From: Candidatus Dormiibacterota bacterium
GTDB lineage: Bacteria; Vulcanimicrobiota; Vulcanimicrobiia; Vulcanimicrobiales; Vulcanimicrobiaceae
NCBI GenBank assembly: GCA_035532035.1
Contig: DATKRS010000030.1
Coordinates: 1 to 43,400 of the forward strand
DNA length: 43,400 nucleotides
Direction of reading: 5' to 3'
The notes beneath the pieces were generated by a model. That model had not been told where the DNA came from, did no database searches, and worked only from the letters and a program-made list of their open reading frames with translations. The translations under genes and the position numbers were made by a program. Of the stretch, positions 10,343-43,400 are shown one piece after another; the stretch's first letter is position 1, and each line of letters opens with the position of its first letter.

Positions 10343-11586
10343 ACGCGCTCTCGTGCGGCAACCGCGACGTGCAGCGCACGATCCAAATCCCAGATGAGGT
10401 CGTCGACGTCCTCCAGCCCAACGGAGAGGCGAATTGACTCCGGCGCGACACCCGCTTTGCGCATCTCTTCGTCGTTCAGCTGCGAGTGCGTCGTGGAGGC
10501 GGGATGGATCACGAGGCTCTTCGCGTCACCGACGTTGGCGAGATGGCTCCACAGCTCGAGCGCGTCGATGAAACGCCGCCCGGCCTCTCGTCCGCCGGCG
10601 ATGCCGAACGTGAAGACGGCGCCTTGCGTGTATGTGACCCACGCCACCTCCGGCCGCGAACGCAGAAACTCCGCGATCGCCTGGGCATTGCGCACGTGTG
10701 CGTCCATGCGCAGCGCGAGCGTCTCCAAGCCGAGCAGGAGAAGCCACGCGTCCATCGGCGCGAGCTGTGCGCCGACGTCGCGCAGAACCTCGGCGCGCGC
10801 GCGCATTAGAAATGCGTACTCGCCGAAGGTTTCGGTGAAGACCTTCTGGTGGTAACCGGGGCTCGGCTCGGAGAGCATTGGAAACTTCCCGTTGCCCCAC
10901 GGAAACGTTCCCGCCTCGACGAGTACGCCGCCGATGGTCGTGCCGTGACCGCTGATAAACTTCGTTGCGGAGTGGAGGACGACGTCGGCTCCGTGCTCGA
11001 TCGGCCGGCACAGATAGGGCGTCGCAAACGTGTTGTCGACGACGAACGGAATGCCGTGCTCGTGCGCGAGCGTTGCCAGCGCGGGAAGATCGGCAAGCGT
11101 TCCTGCCGGATTGCCGATCGTCTCGACGAAAAGTAGCTTCGTATTCGGGCGGATCGCCGCCGCGAGCGCGTGCAGATCGTCGACGGGCGCAAACGTCGTC
11201 TCGATCCCCATGCGCTTGACCGTGACCGAGAGCTGCGTGATGGTTCCGCCGTAGACGTTCTGCGAACACAGGAGATGATCGCCGGACTGTGCGAGCGAGA
11301 GCACGGTGCAGAGTTGCGCTGCGAGGCCGCTCGAGCACGCGACGGCCCCGAGTCCTCCCTCGAGGCTCGCCATGCGCTCTTCGAATGCCGCGACCGTCGG
11401 ATTGCTGATGCGGCTGTAAATGTGGCCGTAGCTACGCAGCGCAAAGAGCTCGGCCGCCTCTTGCGTCGAGCCGAAGACGTACGCCGCGGTCTGGTAGATC
11501 GGCATAACGCGCGAGCCGGTCGCAGGGTCGGGCGGCGTGCCGGCATGGATTGCGCGCGTCGCGAACCCAAAGGCCCTATCGTGCAT
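10339..11586 (-). CDS. metY: O-acetylhomoserine sulfhydrylase (Cys/Met metabolism PLP enzyme)
   Basis: A 415-residue enzyme of the Cys/Met metabolism PLP family, best matching O-acetylhomoserine (thiol)-lyase. That enzyme makes homocysteine from O-acetylhomoserine and sulfide for methionine synthesis. The N terminus GFATRAIHAGTPPDPATGSR and PIYQTAAYVF are typical. Lys209 in HSATKFISGHG carries PLP, and SRISNPTVAAFEERMASLEGG and VVDNTFATPYLCRPIEHGAD are family blocks. The length of about 415 and the GEYAFLMRAR stretch favour MetY over cystathionine gamma-synthase. It is the first gene of the leftward operon. No Shine-Dalgarno sequence or SAM riboswitch is apparent upstream; a repeat element lies there instead. 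Confidence 0.9.
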   Translation of the reverse strand: MHDRAFGFATRAIHAGTPPDPATGSRVMPIYQTAAYVFGSTQEAAELFALRSYGHIYSRISNPTVAAFEERMASLEGGLGAVACSSGLAAQLCTVLSLAQSGDHLLCSQNVYGGTITQLSVTVKRMGIETTFAPVDDLHALAAAIRPNTKLLFVETIGNPAGTLADLPALATLAHEHGIPFVVDNTFATPYLCRPIEHGADVVLHSATKFISGHGTTIGGVLVEAGTFPWGNGKFPMLSEPSPGYHQKVFTETFGEYAFLMRARAEVLRDVGAQLAPMDAWLLLLGLETLALRMDAHVRNAQAIAEFLRSRPEVAWVTYTQGAVFTFGIAGGREAGRRFIDALELWSHLANVGDAKSLVIHPASTTHSQLNDEEMRKAGVAPESIRLSVGLEDVDDLIWDLDRALHVAVAARERV

Positions 11587-37111: not shown

Positions 37112-38401
37112 CTACGGCGTTCTGACTGCTGTACCGGGAGCCAAGCCGAGCGCTCCGTCCACGACGACTCGCGCGCCTTGGGGCAGCCCCGCAACGATCG
37201 ATAGCCCGGGATCCGATGCCACTTCCCGTACGTGCGCTTCCTCGACGCGCCCGTGTCGCACGACCATGATGCTGTCATGCCGATCGCTCAAGAATGCCGT
37301 CGTGGGAATAGTGATGCCGCGCCTCGGCGGCAAAGCGATGGTCGCGATGACCGGCATTCCGGCTTGCCACGCGCCCGTCGGATTGGCGAGGTCCACTTTG
37401 ATGGCGAAATTCGTCGAGCCCGGTTCGACCTGTGGCAGGACCGCAGTCACCACGCCGCTCACCGCGTGGGAACGCGAACCGCCGCTGCGCATTACCGTTG
37501 CGGTCAGGCCGGCGTGAACCCGAAATGCTTCGTCGCTCGATGCGCTGAGCACGGCATACACATGCGAAATCTCTTGCAGCGTGAATATTTGCCGCCCTGA
37601 AGGGTACTCGCCCGGATTCAGATTGCGATTGACTACGATACCGTCTATCGGAGAAACGATAACCGCGCGAGCAATCTCACGTTCGATCTCGCGCGCTTGC
37701 GCTGCGGCGACGCGCGCTTGGGCACGCGCCTCCGCGATGTTCGAGGCGAGCAGCCCTTGATTCGAGCTCCCGACCGGATTGCCGTTCAGGCTCACATCCG
37801 CGGTCGCCGCGCTCAGCTGCGCTTGCGCGGCGCGCAACGCTTGTTCGTCCGATGCGACGCGCGTGCGCTGCGCATCGAGGGCTTGTAGCGAGAGGTATCC
37901 CTTTTGCTCCAACGCCTCGTAGCGACGCTCGTTGAGGACATCTTCTTGCAGGGTCGTACGGTCTTGCGCGACTTGGGACTGAGCCGACTGCATGGTACTC
38001 GAGCCGTGCGCGAGCGCCTCCCTGGACTGGTACGTCACCTCTGCCGCCTTCGCGCGGTCGACCGATACCATCTGTAGCGCCGCTGCGAGAGTCGCCTGGA
38101 GATCGTCCGTTGCAAGCGTTGCGAGCACCTCGCCCTTGCGGACCCACGTGCCTTCGTGCACGTACACGGCCGTCGCGGGCTCCAGCAACGACGAAGAGAG
38201 TGCGACGCTGCGACGCGGTGCGATGAGGCCGGCGAGCGTCTCGGAAACCCGCAATACCGCGGGTGCGGCAACGCTGGTACGAACCGACATCCTATGGTGA
38301 ACCGGCGTTGCGGGTTTTTCGGCGCAGGCGCCAAGCGAGAGGGCCACCACCGCCATCCCGAGATATGCGCGTGCGCGTCGTGCGTCGCCCGAGCCCCTCA
38401 C
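37112..38401 (-). CDS. RND efflux membrane-fusion (periplasmic adaptor) lipoprotein
   Basis: A 429-residue HlyD/AcrA-type adaptor. The N terminus is a lipoprotein signal (MAVVALSLGAC). The barrel-lipoyl part contains SSLLEPATAVYVHEGTWVRKGEVLATL. A long alpha-hairpin (about 95-200, Ala/Gln/Arg-rich) follows, then a second lipoyl half (ARAVIVSPIDGIVVNRNLNPGEYPSGRQIF), and beta-barrel and membrane-proximal domains. It connects the RND pump to an outer-membrane channel that is not encoded nearby. The GTG start overlaps the pump stop (GTGA). Reading further upstream only yields shadow of the pump gene. Confidence 0.9.
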   Translation of the reverse strand: MRGSGDARRARAYLGMAVVALSLGACAEKPATPVHHRMSVRTSVAAPAVLRVSETLAGLIAPRRSVALSSSLLEPATAVYVHEGTWVRKGEVLATLATDDLQATLAAALQMVSVDRAKAAEVTYQSREALAHGSSTMQSAQSQVAQDRTTLQEDVLNERRYEALEQKGYLSLQALDAQRTRVASDEQALRAAQAQLSAATADVSLNGNPVGSSNQGLLASNIAEARAQARVAAAQAREIEREIARAVIVSPIDGIVVNRNLNPGEYPSGRQIFTLQEISHVYAVLSASSDEAFRVHAGLTATVMRSGGSRSHAVSGVVTAVLPQVEPGSTNFAIKVDLANPTGAWQAGMPVIATIALPPRRGITIPTTAFLSDRHDSIMVVRHGRVEEAHVREVASDPGLSIVAGLPQGARVVVDGALGLAPGTAVRTP

Positions 38402-41400
38402 GAAACCTCTCCGGCGCCGCGCTGCACGGATCGCACCGCCCGCGCGTCCGGCCGCACGGCGTGGCGTATTTCCTTTGGCGCAAAACGCATGTACATCACC
38501 GGGACGAGAACGAGGGTCAGCAACAGCGAGCTCGACATCCCGCCGATGACGACGATGCCCAGGCTCTGCCGCACCTGCGAGCCGGGCTCCAGGGCGAGTG
38601 CGAGCGGCGTCATCGCCGCGATCATGGAAACGGTCGTCATCACGATCGGGCGAAAACGGGCTCGCGCGCTCTCCTTGATGGCGCGCAGCCTGCCGGCACC
38701 ATGATGGCGCAGCGTGTTTGCGTAATCGACCAGCAGAATGCCGTTTTTTGTCACGATGCCGATCAGCATGAGACAACCGATCAGAGAGAAGAGATTGAGC
38801 GTCTGATGCGTCAGCGCCAACGCTCCGAGTGCACCGAAAACGGCGACCGGAACGGCGAACATGATGATGAACGGCGAGAGGTAGCTATCGTACAGTGCGA
38901 CCATCAGCAAGAAGACGAGAATCAGGGAGAGGATCAAGGAGCCGCCGAGATCCGTGAGCACCTCCTTCATACGCGCCTGCTGGCCGTTCGGGGTCGCATG
39001 CACGCTCACGAACGGCGGCAGGTGCAGAGCGGCGATCCTGGCGTTCAGCTGGTGCTGCACGCTCGAGAGGGAATAGCCGGACGCGACATCTGCATTGACG
39101 TGCACGACGTCCGAGCGGTCCTGGCGAACGATCAGCGGCGGCGCGGGCGTCCAGCGAAGACGTGCGATGTCGCCGACGTGGACGATCGAGCCGTTGAGCG
39201 CGCGTATGGGGATTTCCAGGATCGCGCGCGGATCGTGCAGATGTGCGAGCGGATAGATCACCTGTATGTAGACCAGTCCGTTGGTGGTACTGAACTGCGA
39301 CGCGATTGCGCCGCCGAAGGCCGCCTCGACGGCCGTAGCGGCATCGCCGATGCTCACGTCGAGCATCCGCGCCATGGCGCGGTTGAAGACGACCGAGAGT
39401 TGCGGCGTGAGCCGGCGAGCGGAGCTGCTGACATTTATCGTGCCGGGCGTAGAGACAAGCGCATCGAAAACGCGGCGAGCGTATGGCGTGGGATCGTGTC
39501 CGCTCCGTAGCGAGACGAGCTCGTCGATCGGCTGCACGCTACCGCCTCCGGTCCCCGATGCGGCAATGACGACTGCATGGGCCGCCGGCGCCTGTTGTGC
39601 GACCAGCGTTCGCAGGTCGTGCACCCAGAAATCCGTCGAATGATGGCGCCCGTAGTGGAGAAAGAGGTGAATCTGACCGACGTTCGATTCCGAAACCGTG
39701 TGCCCGAAAGGCGCCGAGTAGCGTCCTGCAACCGTCGTCTCCGAGCGCAGATCGGGAATGCGATCCACTGCACGCTCGAGTCTCAGGAGCGCGGCCTTGG
39801 TCGTTTGCAACGGCGTTCCAACCGGATAGGCGAGCTGTACGTAGATTTCCCCGCGATCTTGCGGCGGAATGAACTCTTCGCCCACGACACCGGTCGGTAC
39901 CAGGAGCATTGCAAAACCGAACGACGCGGCAGCAATGGCCATCACGATCTGCGGATGGCGCAATCCCCAGTTCAGCAGGTGCGATGAATACCATCGCCGG
40001 ACGCGCTCGAAGCCCGTTCCAAAGGCCCGCACGGGGGCGGGCGGCCGCCACTGCGAGTGCAGCGACCAGAGTCCCGCCAGGCCCGGCGTAATGGTAAAGG
40101 AAACGAAGAGCGAGGTCAGCGTGGAGACCGTCACCACGATGCCGAACTCTGCGAGCTCGCGTCCGATCGGCCCATGCAAGAACGCAATCGGTAAAAAGAC
40201 GACGACGTCGACCAGCGTGAGCACGATCGTTGCGGCTCCAATTTCTGCTCGCGCTTGTACGGCCGCGTCGTGCGGCGTTTGCCCGAGTTCTCGGTAGTGC
40301 CGCTCGGCATTCTCTAGAACCACCGTCGAGCCGTCGATGAGTATCCCGAAGACCAACGTCATCGCGAGCAGCGAGATCGTGTCGATGGTCAAACCCAACA
40401 AACGCATCACGAATAACGCGACCGCCAACGAGACCGGGATTGCGATCATGACGACGATGGCATTTCGCCAGGACTGGAGGAAGAGCAGCATGACCAGTGC
40501 CGTCAATCCGACGCCTTCCAGCAAGGTGCGGATGACGTCGCCGAGCTGTTGCTCGGTCACTTTCGCCTGCACCTCGATGATTTTGAAATGGATCTGAGGA
40601 AATTGGGATTTGAGCGCCGGCAATGCAGCGAGGACGTTGTTCGCGACCGTCACCTCGGATTGCGACGTAGCCTTGCGGACCTCCAAGAGAATGCTCCGCT
40701 GCCCCTCTACCGACGCGTAGTCGAGTTGCGGTTCGTGAGAATCGCGTACGCTCGCGATTTGCCCGATGCTCACGTCGTGAGCGACCTGGGTCCAGAGGTT
40801 GAGCGTTCCGACCGTATTCGCGGGTGCCGATTGAACGCTGCTCTGAATCAGGAGCGACGATACCGACTGAGGCGAGCTGATGTCTCCCCGCACGTCGACC
40901 GAGGTTTGCCGATTCGATTCGTATGCGAAGCCGCCGGGCGCGCGAACGTTATTCGCGGCAATGCTCGAGACGACGTCGTTCAGCGTGAGACCTTCGGCGG
41001 CCAGCGCACGCGGGTGAACGCGAACCTCGTATGCGGGCACGACGTCGCCCGTGACGTTGACTTTGGAGACGCCGGCGATCTGTTCGAGCGTTGGGACGAG
41101 ATGGTTGATGACGACTCGCGCGAGAGCGCTGGGGCTGAGTGCGCGCGAACTTACGGCGATCGTCACGACGTGCGGTTGGCTGGGATTGCTCGCGCGCACG
41201 ACCGGCGGTGCGACGCTGCTCGGCAAGTTCGATTGCGCGGCCTGCACGGCTTTCTGCACGTTCGTCAAATCGGCCGGGACGTTGGACGATAGCGCGAAGG
41301 TAGCCGTAATCGACGCGCGGCCGGCTTCGATGATTGCACTCAGATGCTGGAGGTTCGGGGATCCGCTCACCTGCTCTTCGATCGGGATGACCACAGCGTC

Positions 41401-41577
41401 GCGCATCACGCTGGTCGGTGCGCCTGCATAGGTCGCTGAAATGCTGATGGTAGGGTGTGCGACGTTGGGATACTCTTGCTGGACCAAAGAGTGCCATGCA
41501 AAAGCACCGGCCAGGAGGGCGAGCGTAATGACGACGACAGCCAGGGTTGGCCGTTGAACGAAGAGCCGTGTCAGCAT
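38398..41577 (-). CDS. RND family efflux transporter (AcrB/HAE1 type)
   Basis: A full-length, 1059-residue RND pump with twelve expected membrane helices and two large periplasmic loops. The start MLTRLFVQRPTLAVVVITLALLAGA and PNVAHPTISISATYAGA is typical. The TM10 Lys is present (GIVTKNGILLVDYAN) and ARFRPIVMTTVSMIAAMTPLAL matches TM11. In TM4 the usual proton-relay Asp pair (AcrB Asp407-Asp408) is Asp415-Gly416 here (GILIDGSTVVLENAER), so one Asp is missing. The pump gene comes before the adaptor gene, the reverse of acrAB. The substrate is unknown; the family exports drugs, lipids and detergents. Confidence 0.93.
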   Translation of the reverse strand: MLTRLFVQRPTLAVVVITLALLAGAFAWHSLVQQEYPNVAHPTISISATYAGAPTSVMRDAVVIPIEEQVSGSPNLQHLSAIIEAGRASITATFALSSNVPADLTNVQKAVQAAQSNLPSSVAPPVVRASNPSQPHVVTIAVSSRALSPSALARVVINHLVPTLEQIAGVSKVNVTGDVVPAYEVRVHPRALAAEGLTLNDVVSSIAANNVRAPGGFAYESNRQTSVDVRGDISSPQSVSSLLIQSSVQSAPANTVGTLNLWTQVAHDVSIGQIASVRDSHEPQLDYASVEGQRSILLEVRKATSQSEVTVANNVLAALPALKSQFPQIHFKIIEVQAKVTEQQLGDVIRTLLEGVGLTALVMLLFLQSWRNAIVVMIAIPVSLAVALFVMRLLGLTIDTISLLAMTLVFGILIDGSTVVLENAERHYRELGQTPHDAAVQARAEIGAATIVLTLVDVVVFLPIAFLHGPIGRELAEFGIVVTVSTLTSLFVSFTITPGLAGLWSLHSQWRPPAPVRAFGTGFERVRRWYSSHLLNWGLRHPQIVMAIAAASFGFAMLLVPTGVVGEEFIPPQDRGEIYVQLAYPVGTPLQTTKAALLRLERAVDRIPDLRSETTVAGRYSAPFGHTVSESNVGQIHLFLHYGRHHSTDFWVHDLRTLVAQQAPAAHAVVIAASGTGGGSVQPIDELVSLRSGHDPTPYARRVFDALVSTPGTINVSSSARRLTPQLSVVFNRAMARMLDVSIGDAATAVEAAFGGAIASQFSTTNGLVYIQVIYPLAHLHDPRAILEIPIRALNGSIVHVGDIARLRWTPAPPLIVRQDRSDVVHVNADVASGYSLSSVQHQLNARIAALHLPPFVSVHATPNGQQARMKEVLTDLGGSLILSLILVFLLMVALYDSYLSPFIIMFAVPVAVFGALGALALTHQTLNLFSLIGCLMLIGIVTKNGILLVDYANTLRHHGAGRLRAIKESARARFRPIVMTTVSMIAAMTPLALALEPGSQVRQSLGIVVIGGMSSSLLLTLVLVPVMYMRFAPKEIRHAVRPDARAVRSVQRGAGEVS

Positions 41578-41794: not shown

Positions 41795-41820
41795 CGGCCA
41801 TTCTCGCGGAGAGATGGCCG
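41795..41820. repeat. Inverted repeat around the tRNA-Ser fragment start
   Basis: CGGCCATTCTC (41795-41805) mirrors GAGAGATGGCCG (41809-41820) with a single inserted base, across GCG. The right arm is the acceptor and D-arm start of the tRNA-Ser sequence, so the left arm looks like a short inverted copy of it. Confidence 0.6.
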
Positions 41821-41847
41821 AGCGGCTGAAGGCGGCGGTTTGCTAAT
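41808..41847 (+). pseudogene. 5' half of tRNA-Ser(GCU)
   Basis: The sequence starts GGAGAGATGGCCGAGCGGC and runs through GAAGGCGGCGG to TTTGCTAA, which matches bacterial tRNA-Ser acceptor strand, D-arm and anticodon loop with anticodon GCT at 41842-41844. After the loop the 3' anticodon stem, the long variable arm, the T-arm and the acceptor complement (TCTCTCC expected) are absent. The next bases (TCTGACC) do not pair with GCGGT. It is therefore a broken copy cut at the anticodon loop, as left by tRNA-targeting integrating elements or a rearrangement. Confidence 0.75.
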
Positions 41848-41856
41848 CTGACCTGT

Positions 41857-41886
41857 GCGAGTCGAAGCGAGTCGCAGCGAATGCCA
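41857..41886. repeat. Three imperfect 10-bp direct repeats
   Basis: GCGAGTCGAA, GCGAGTCGCA and GCGAATGCCA follow each other directly, starting ten bases after the tRNA-Ser fragment. They could be arm-type binding sites of a recombinase or mere slippage; the sequence alone cannot decide. Confidence 0.45.
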
Positions 41887-42040
41887 CGCCGAATAAAATC
41901 GGTTGTTGTAAGTTGCATCGAACCGCATTGAGCCGCTATCGACGGCAACCGTTTGGCAACCACTCTGCGAGTTGCTGACCGCGCACCCGCAATCGAGGGG
42001 GCGAATGGGCACCGCGGCCCACCGGACAAAGGAGCGCGCC

Positions 42041-42490
42041 ATGCCCAACGAACACCCCCTTTTGGGGAGGACCAGCATGATGCTTCGAGCGGTTGTGGCC
42101 AGCGTTGCCTGGTTCGCATGCGCCTTGCCTGTAAGTGGCGCGCCCACGGTTCTGAGCAGCTTGCCGACCGCGTCCGCGATTCCCCCAATCATCTTGCAAG
42201 GATGCGCGCAAAAAGTAAGGGCTCGGCATGGATTCCTGAGCGCAACGGGCGGCGGAATCTTCGGTGCGGCGCGCGGGGATCAGGTCGTCGGGTTCGATGT
42301 CTCTTTCGTCAATACCACGCAGAAGGTGGCAACCGTCATCGTCGTCCGAATCGGCGACACAGAGTTCGCGAAAACCGGCACTTTCTCGCCCGGCGTCACG
42401 ATAGCGTGGAGGCTTGCCGCCGCCCCAGGCGCATGCTCGATCCGCGCCGTCCGCTTTCAAGACGGCACGGAATGGACGGCGCCAAACTAG
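42041..42490 (+). CDS. Small secreted protein of unknown function
   Basis: A 149-residue protein with a signal peptide (MMLRAVVASVAWFACALPVSGAP). The mature domain of about 110 residues is beta-rich (VVGFDVSFVNTTQKVATVIVVRIGDTEF, FAKTGTFSPGVTIAWRL) with two Cys (ILQGCAQK, PGACSIRA) likely joined outside the cytoplasm. No named family is recognised. Two starts are plausible: ATG 42041 after AAAGGAG, and ATG 42077 after GGGGAGG, which begins exactly at the signal peptide (137 residues). Both ribosome sites have good spacing. No gene overlap links it to its neighbours. Confidence 0.7.
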   Translation: MPNEHPLLGRTSMMLRAVVASVAWFACALPVSGAPTVLSSLPTASAIPPIILQGCAQKVRARHGFLSATGGGIFGAARGDQVVGFDVSFVNTTQKVATVIVVRIGDTEFAKTGTFSPGVTIAWRLAAAPGACSIRAVRFQDGTEWTAPN

Positions 42491-42514
42491 TTACGCTCGC
42501 TATCACAACGTGTC

Positions 42515-42547
42515 CCGCGGTAGCCGCGGCCAAGGGGTGGCAACCCC
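42515..42547. other. Two adjacent short hairpins after the secreted-protein gene
   Basis: CCGCGG-TAG-CCGCGG (42515-42529) and GGGGT-GGCA-ACCCC (42534-42547) are perfect small stems. No T run follows on the plus strand, so they are not typical intrinsic terminators. The rest of 42548-42714 holds no gene I can support. Confidence 0.4.
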
Positions 42548-42714
42548 AACGCCACCGCTGGCAGCGACCGCGCGAAAACCGAACCTAGCTTGGGTCTGTG
42601 TAGCACTGAAGAAATTTTGAAAAAGGGTTTTGGCTTCCGCTATGGCGAGCGCCACGTTCCGCACGTAGGGGCACACGACCGTTGCGCCACATGGCAGCAT
42701 TGGCTGCGCCTCAC

Positions 42715-43164
42715 TTAGCGCACTCGTCTTGATAAGGCCTCTTGCTGGCGCCTGCGCTCCTGGGATTGTAGGTAGCTACGAAACACGAAGGGGCCCGCGG
42801 CCGTGGCAATGGCCACTCCAATCTCGGAAAACCCTTGGAGGGAATGCCCGTGCCGTAGAAGATCGGCACCTGCCCAGACCAGGTAGACTCCAATACCTCC
42901 GCCGATCAAAAGCCCGAGGTTGGCACGAGCCGCATCGGATATAATGATTATCCGTTCCATTGCGCGCCGATGCTTGCTCTGCGCCTGAAACTCCGCAAAC
43001 AGAATCTCGCCCGACCCCGGCACGCTCCGGTTATACTCTTCGATTTGCTGGGCGCTCGGGAGGGGTCCCGAGATCATTGTTCCCTGGACTGTTAGCGTAG
43101 CGACGCCTGGAGGCTGGGTCGCCTGCTGCTGCCGTAACAGGCGCCTGCGCTGTTTAGAGGCCAA
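42715..43164 (-). CDS. DUF2335-type membrane protein
   Basis: A 149-residue protein whose middle, SGPLPSAQQIEEYNRSVPGSGEILFAEFQAQSKHRRAMER, matches the hallmark of DUF2335 (a GPLP start, a short helix, a PG turn and an EXQXXHR-like helix). Two membrane segments follow (LGLLIGGGIGVYLVWAGADLL and GVAIATAAGPFVFRSYL). The N and C termini are basic and Gln-rich. The family's function is unknown; members are common in mobile or accessory DNA. Its ATG lies three bases after the stop of the partial gene at the window edge, so the two form an operon. Confidence 0.75.
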   Translation of the reverse strand: MASKQRRRLLRQQQATQPPGVATLTVQGTMISGPLPSAQQIEEYNRSVPGSGEILFAEFQAQSKHRRAMERIIIISDAARANLGLLIGGGIGVYLVWAGADLLRHGHSLQGFSEIGVAIATAAGPFVFRSYLQSQERRRQQEALSRRVR

Positions 43165-43167
43165 ATG

Positions 43168-43400
43168 CTACGCTGGCAACGCGCGCTGCTGCATGGCCTT
43201 GGTAAGATCATGGCCAACCATGTACCAATCGGCATAGACCGATAGAGCATCCGATTCGCCAGGGCTGAAATACATGTTGTAATTCCAAACCTGGGGACTA
43301 AAAAGGTCGATGACGCTTCCCATGCCGCCAAGGAAACCGGGACGCGCGACCAAGTAGAACGGGCGGATATCCTCCGGACCGTAGGACGCTGGGAGCCAGC
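43168..43400 (-). CDS. Protein of unknown function, C-terminal part
   Basis: The frame is open from the window edge to its stop at 43168; 76 residues are visible (beginning LPASYGPEDIRPFYLVARPG, then FLGGMGSVIDLF and SDALSVYADWYMVGHDLTKAM). No ATG start is needed inside the window. The pattern YxVARPGFLxGxGxxxD and DWYMVGxDLxxAM looks conserved, but I cannot name the family with confidence. It is the upstream gene of the DUF2335 operon. Confidence 0.6.
   Translation of the reverse strand, partial: WLPASYGPEDIRPFYLVARPGFLGGMGSVIDLFSPQVWNYNMYFSPGESDALSVYADWYMVGHDLTKAMQQRALPA

Follow-up and report, generated by a model that had tools for sequence, protein, structure and literature searches.

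Among the islands collected by Islander, 3760 of 3919 carry a 3' fragment of the target tRNA gene and 159 a 5' fragment, and the site classes distinguished in the available part of that work include an anticodon-centred crossover (PMC4383910). Use of the 5' half is described as seldom met in bacteria in the accessible portion of a review that cites Williams 2002 (PMC8371274). For archaeal integrases of the pTN3-like type, the portions available of two articles give the tRNA 5' half as attB, with 41 bp shared, and state that rebuilding separates the tRNA from the promoter it had before (PMC8371274, PMC5495485). A further solution is described, in the part of the article at hand, for phages with tRNA-dependent lysogeny, which do not rebuild the tRNA and bring along a whole tRNA gene (PMC10865867).

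The window, the whole stretch of DNA that was analysed (43,400 nucleotides), is the complete contig C30 of a 2.25-Mb genome in 38 contigs (G000). Towards its right end it harbors a perfect 5' half of tRNA-Ser(GCU) of 39 nt (GGAGAGATGGCCGAGCGGCTGAAGGCGGCGGTTTGCTAA), which is identical, from the first tRNA base to the last base of the anticodon loop, to a tRNA on contig C37 (4206..4168, minus strand); the expectation for such an exact match by chance is about 1e-17. Since neither ARAGORN nor Rfam at its gathering cut-off called a tRNA in the window, the stretch is a fragment. A crossover within the loop, with the element having to supply all that lies 5' of it, would produce identity over exactly this span. 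The half of a tRNA-Ser stopping at the anticodon loop, which an earlier note had read from the letters, is real. The looser tail behind it, for which the note had made the broken tRNA the border of the chromosome, corresponds to the first 1554 bp of an element (41847-43400), while of the several DUF2335 genes placed there one was supported. The long ORF to the left, which we take by its sequence to encode an RND-type efflux transporter, is kept in part in the congener G001, with no tRNA nearby there.

Just upstream of the fragment, the inverted near-copy of the tRNA start mentioned in the earlier note is present (CGGCCAT-TCTC, 11 of 12 positions paired with a 1-nt bulge). Its score was matched by 30 of 5000 shuffles and 49 of 4337 window 30-mers, and the near-copy was not seen in the G003 copy of the element. 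It was dropped as a weak feature.

The 93 terminal bases of C30 have a single further occurrence in the genome, at the C37 end, so that the two contigs join. An artefactual join was rejected, as the overlap is unique to the two contig ends, an ORF reads across it and both ends of the element lie on one contig in the congener G003; in G000 itself the join is based on the assembly overlap and this congener remnant and not on a single contig. In the joined sequence two identical 39-nt halves are found in the same orientation with their starts 8652 bp apart. C37 carries, in one direction, a 403-aa tyrosine integrase, a gap of 100 nt, the intact tRNA-Ser(GCU) and then a tRNA-Arg(ACG), so that searching beyond position 43400, as the earlier note had advised, yielded both the integrase and the intact tRNA. 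Set against the Islander definition, an intact tRNA and an upstream 5' fragment of the same orientation flank the element, the tyrosine integrase (403 aa) lies inside, and the length of 8652 bp is within 2-200 kb. Read from this layout, a putative element of 8652 bp has the displaced 5' half on one side and, on the other, a tRNA that would owe its own 5' half to the element, the less common arrangement that the note had guessed, with the intact tRNA rebuilt at the far end. The features are collected in Table 1.

Table 1. Features of the tRNA-Ser(GCU) locus on C30 (the window, no prefix) and C37
Feature	Position	Strand	Basis or remark
Host long ORF, 1059 aa, chromosome left of element	38398..41577	-	ORF call; part conserved in congener G001
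Imperfect inverted copy of tRNA start, host side	41795..41806	.	weak, not conserved
Displaced 5' half of tRNA-Ser(GCU), putative attL core / left scar	41808..41846	+	39/39 identity to rebuilt tRNA on C37
Element's first 1554 bp	41847..43400	.	rest on C37, 11265 down to 4207, reversed
10-bp periodic direct repeats, left attachment arm	41855..41891	+	GAGTCGAAGC / GAGTCGCAGC / degenerate third
Left arm-type site ACGGCAACCGTTTGGCAACC, direct repeat, 11-bp step	41942..41961	+	~95 nt from core
ORF, 172 aa, cargo, no family	41972..42490	+	ORF call and family scans
DUF2335 membrane protein gene	42715..43164	-	Pfam E 9.5e-6; PHROG 3996 E 1.1e-18, filed as phage moron
86-aa ORF, 3' part	43168..43400	-	starts on C37 (11238), reads across contig join
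Exact C30/C37 overlap	43308..43400	.	C37 end 11266-11358, reversed; C37 carries rest of element
Primase-like gene	C37 6546-7175		PHROG 6088, 3.5e-13
Excisionase-like gene	C37 6307-6549		TIGR01764 8.7e-5, weak, below cut-off
Tyrosine integrase, 403 aa	C37 5518..4307	-	PF00589 7e-24; arm-binding domain PF14657; PHROG integrase 3e-59
Intact tRNA-Ser(GCU)	C37 4206..4117	-	only intact copy found in genome

Very probably, therefore, the 8652-bp stretch is an integrative element that entered tRNA-Ser(GCU) at its anticodon loop through the action of a tyrosine recombinase and brought a new 5' half with it. In the circular form, a copy of the tRNA 5' half, with arm-type integrase sites on either side, would adjoin the integrase gene. 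If strands were exchanged within the 7-bp anticodon loop, the native 5' half would come to lie at the opposite end of the element, as the fragment in the window, and the element's half would be joined to the chromosomal 3' half, giving the intact tRNA on C37. Recombination, excision and circularisation are predicted from sequence, and the rebuilt tRNA would be transcribed from element DNA, either from a promoter of its own or by read-through from the co-directional integrase gene.

The attachment arms were analyzed at both ends. The three 10-bp direct repeats behind the fragment, also listed in the earlier note, have a real period (reached by none of 5000 shuffles at period 10, and by 6 of 3000 when the best of periods 5-15 was taken) with a degenerate third unit, and form part of the left attachment arm; together with one extra unit they recur in the left end in G003 and in a remnant on C37. 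This remnant of another left end (L004 1080-1202) carries a Ser-UGA anticodon arm, is 80% like the left end in the window and lies inside a Met element. At the right end the arm-type site is ACGGCAACCGAATGGCAACC; at either end some 95-110 nt separate the direct-repeat arm sites from the crossover point, and the two 20-nt sites match at 18 positions by eye. The longest string common to both arm regions of the Ser-GCU element measures 10 nt and was reached by 13 of 200 shuffles. When 12 pairs of ends were compared with shuffles of two-base blocks (not exact dinucleotide shuffles), six pairs beat them (at most 3 of 200), two were borderline (13 and 15 of 200) and four failed (G000 Lys, G004 Ser-UGA, G007 Arg, G050 Ser-UGA), although for G000 Lys and G004 Ser-UGA the eye can make out a repeated motif at each of the two ends.

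Besides the integrase and the genes in Table 1, the element encodes a Cro/C1-type regulator and a 547-aa protein of no family with a nucleotide-binding-like loop recognized by eye. No capsid, terminase, relaxase or structural-protein family was found among 10 proteins compared with Pfam and PHROGs, five of them also with NCBIfam. Judged by what characterizes PICI-like elements (integrase, AlpA-like excisionase, primase), the excisionase match is weak, the primase-like protein matches PHROG 6088 and no structural family was found among the same 10 proteins. By its gene content the element may be a small replicating integrative element or a phage satellite. The calls included no whole tRNA gene within the element; the tRNA-Arg of C37 is outside it. 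Searches of viral contigs gave no relative of the integrase and those of phage and plasmid records only matches below 60% identity; its named relatives come from Candidatus Eremiobacterota / WPS-2 MAGs, and from one MAG titled 'bacterium'. We take the phylum to be the one now listed by NCBI as Vulcanimicrobiota.

To place the insertion, tRNA-Ser(GCU) loci of relatives were compared. G003 contains the same element at the same tRNA, deleted to 1.46 kb, which keeps both arm sites and a C-terminal remnant (last codons) of the integrase; the left ends in G000, G003 and the C37 remnant align. In G004 an integrase C-terminus abuts tRNA-Ser(GCU) at a contig start. At 26 loci of relatives the tRNA-Ser(GCU) has no 5' fragment in the stretch examined, which reaches at most about 1.5 kb upstream. 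Such loci may be empty sites and provide the comparison with tail-less genomes that the earlier note had proposed, with two that may not be pristine: L071 (G021) has an integrase remnant upstream of the tRNA, and L072 (G036) an integrase-like C-terminus by eye, without BLAST confirmation. In none of the relatives were the two G000 flanks joined; the right flank with the tRNA aligns in relatives, and G001 aligns on the left gene only. Four genus genomes (G001, G002, G005, G006), in which tRNA-Ser(GCU) was not found, are uninformative on the site. A fragment standing without an element, which the note had named as evidence against integration, was not encountered: that in G003 ends a deleted copy of the element, and the 5' part seen in G009 borders on a scaffold gap and is uninformative.

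The G003 copy, with both ends preserved and no interior, raises the question of whether the G000 insertion is likewise a decayed, immobile relic of the right anatomy, its right end being kept for the upstream DNA of the tRNA. Right ends have outlasted the rest in G003 Ser-GCU, G003 Arg-CCU, G021 Ser-GCU and G000 Ser-UGA, the last three of them without a full integrase; at G003 Arg-CCU the arm site and the upstream motif described below are present and no integrase was detected. Such survival would fit selection on DNA that is now needed by an essential tRNA. For G000 we regard immobility as unlikely, since the integrase ORF is full length, the residues presumed to be catalytic (R, K, H, R, H, Y) are all present, in columns invariant among four relatives, and the two 39-nt halves are still identical.

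Further elements of the same anatomy were found in G000 itself. The Lys-UUU element (8991 bp) has both ends on contig C33 (L043 2896-11959), an integrase of a different clade and arm sites of the TGACCA type. An orphan tRNA-Arg 3' half on the same contig (L043 13159-13227), beside an integrase at the contig end and on its strand, fits neither polarity. The Met-CAU element has its 5' half on C37 (L004 1-2294) and the intact tRNA with the integrase end on C34 (L044 7675-8118); its middle is unassembled, and an identical 25-nt arm site is present at both ends (0 of 200 shuffles). Joining these two contigs restores the order Ser-Arg-Met-Arg-Ser, a tRNA cluster that is intact in relatives and split in G000 by the Ser and Met elements.

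Seven relatives were searched with concatenated tRNA 5' halves, and additional displaced halves were obtained for Ser-UGA (G003, G004, G050), Met (G003), Tyr (G007), Arg-CCU (G007, G050), Thr-CGU (G073) and Lys-CUU (G067), each of which stops where the anticodon loop ends or no more than about 3 nt away. For Ser-UGA in G003 (C73), the displaced and the element-borne half (L051 19523-19610 and L150 1503-1541, about 31 kb apart) differ at positions 12, 19 and 24, and a 13-nt arm string is common to both ends (0 of 200 shuffles). If these are the ends of one element, the insertion may have replaced the D-arm of the tRNA, and the crossover would fall within 15 nt around the anticodon loop. The displaced Met half in G003 follows an integrase remnant 86-94% identical to the G000 Met integrase, so that the tRNA had apparently been rebuilt by one element before another entered it; the G050 Ser-UGA halves likewise follow integrase sequence. 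Scaffold gaps (NN) were noticed inside tRNA halves at L083, L231 and L057 (G004, G009, G050), which is what two copies of a half would lead one to expect, and assemblies of such genomes should be expected to break there.

With so many 5' halves in these genomes, the one in the window might be an old pseudogene or duplication, a stray half-tRNA lying beside an unrelated element. This is very improbable: every half is cut at the anticodon loop, in six of 12 pairs the arm strings of the two ends match better than in shuffles, and the fragments that were inspected lie at element ends or next to integrase sequence or a contig end. Taken to the letter, the several scattered tRNA pieces that the earlier note had named as a refutation do exist, but those inspected have the settings just described.

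All 46 PF00589 matches in the eight genus genomes were classified. An intact tRNA lies within 450 nt of the integrase domain end in 17 of them, with its 5' end facing the integrase in 10 and its 3' end in 7, and displaced 5' halves were found for eight of the 10 cases of 5' polarity. The remaining 29, without an adjacent intact tRNA, include apparently one Xer-type match per genome and contig ends; at four of these loci, all in G004, inspection by eye shows the 3' end of a tRNA or a 3' fragment. Against the 159 of 3919 in the accessible Islander text, the 10 of 17 give a Fisher value of 2.5e-10 (3.8e-9 with the four cut 3' loci added), values that are only indicative since the criteria differ (orientation versus fragment), the genomes of one genus are non-independent and nine of the 17 cases come from the draft genome G007. 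By this count 5' polarity appears unusually common in the genus. The idea that the Ser-GCU element is itself a conventional island, carrying the 3' half while the fragment is something else, deserves almost no credence in spite of the 3' majority in Islander and of integrase relatives that face a tRNA 3' end, as it is refuted by the layout of C30 and C37: the fragment is a 5' half that precedes the intact tRNA and has its orientation, and the integrase faces the tRNA 5' end.

To relate the two polarities, integrase trees were calculated. In a careful tree of 28 integrases, the five rows nearest the Ser-GCU element are all of 5' polarity and lie on one side of a branch (91/85, not starred); labels of L057 (one of these five), L103, L021, L099 and L102 were assigned by eye. 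In this and in a quick 79-row tree, the five are nested among about 20 rows, of which all others that bear a label are of 3' polarity, and the fewest polarity changes are 2 and 6, respectively. The 79-row labels (11 of 5' versus 33 of 3' polarity) include the doubtful 5' cases L054, L115 and L142, with the tRNA less than 50 nt from the integrase, which were left out of the smaller tree and of the terminator test below. The Glu element of G033, a sister of 3' polarity, has the same 20-nt right arm site as the Ser-GCU element, and its 3' fragments start within the T loop or close to it. Similar arm sites appear to be used by relatives of opposite polarity in one clade, and one of these relatives, G033 Glu, would cross over in the T arm. 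At two further 3'-polarity loci (L099 2143-2450, L102 11119-11420) the integrases abut an RNA-like sequence (GTCCGGGTTCGACTCCCGGCCATCC) whose T arm and 3' end are of tRNA type; it received no name from ARAGORN or Rfam and is perhaps a divergent tmRNA.

Terminator-like hairpins in the integrase-tRNA interval were detected at 9 of 21 loci of 3' polarity versus 1 of 16 of 5' polarity (Fisher 0.023); in the direction from integrase to tRNA none of the 16 has one, and none was found between integrase and tRNA at the G000 Ser-GCU locus. Each kind therefore seems to come with the sequence required by its half, a terminator for the 3' half and an open path or putative promoter for the 5' half. A conserved motif almost restricted to intervals between integrase and tRNA, AAACCCGCATnAA, gave 13 matches in nine genomes (L218-L230) versus one for the reversed control. 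Ten are directly upstream of a tRNA or 5' half (two being contig ends, seemingly of one locus), two are beside Glu-3'-end-like sequence, one of these behind an integrase, and one is inside an apparent coding stretch; in G000 it precedes tRNA-Arg(CCU), where no integrase was detected. Its position beside a 3'-polarity integrase speaks against a simple promoter. A sigma-70 scan found nothing, and a test for -10 elements was weak (at least 5 of 6 matches to TATAAT in 5 of 16, shuffle mean 1.6, reached by 4 of 200 shuffles).

Taken together, we give an even chance to a reading in which the integrase clade switched polarity, and in which an element in the 5' state acts as upstream regulator of an essential single-copy tRNA and can replace its D-arm, so that right ends become nearly unlosable, accumulate and stack in tandem. 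In this reading, 3' carriers would cross over in the T arm, as in the case examined, and often bring a terminator, and 5' carriers would cross over in the anticodon loop and bring none. An element that brings a 5' half supplants the upstream region of an essential gene; one that brings a 3' half does not touch the promoter. Both polarities in one integrase clade and several independent 5' cases in a 2.25-Mb genome make this a natural system for asking how an integrase changes the half it carries, whether the tRNA is served by an element promoter or by integrase read-through, and whether such an element is hard to lose.

Compared with described systems, the Ser-GCU element shares with conventional 3'-half islands and prophages the integrase beside the rebuilt tRNA and the arm sites, and the sister integrases of its clade are of this kind; it differs in carrying the opposite half, with no 3' fragment downstream. 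Like tRNA-dependent lysogeny, as far as the available text describes it, integration concerns an essential single-copy tRNA whose function must be kept; unlike there, the tRNA is rebuilt at the right junction and the element has no whole tRNA gene. With pTN3-like elements, judged by the accessible portions of those articles, it has in common the tRNA 5' half as attB and a tRNA separated from its original upstream DNA; there the integrase gene is split, whereas the Ser-GCU integrase ORF is whole, outside the core, and ends 100 nt before the tRNA. With the 5'-fragment islands of Islander, from the part of that work at hand, it shares the fragment and intact tRNA flanking a tyrosine-integrase island with the 5' fragment upstream in the same orientation; the 5' type makes up 159 of 3919 there and about half of the tRNA-adjacent integrases in the genus here. 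Among the papers listed in searches of the open-access literature, judged by titles and abstract openings and with few subscription papers covered, none describes such elements in the phylum or a polarity switch within one integrase clade. The mechanism as such is already known; what is new is its local prevalence and the proposed switch of polarity inside one clade.
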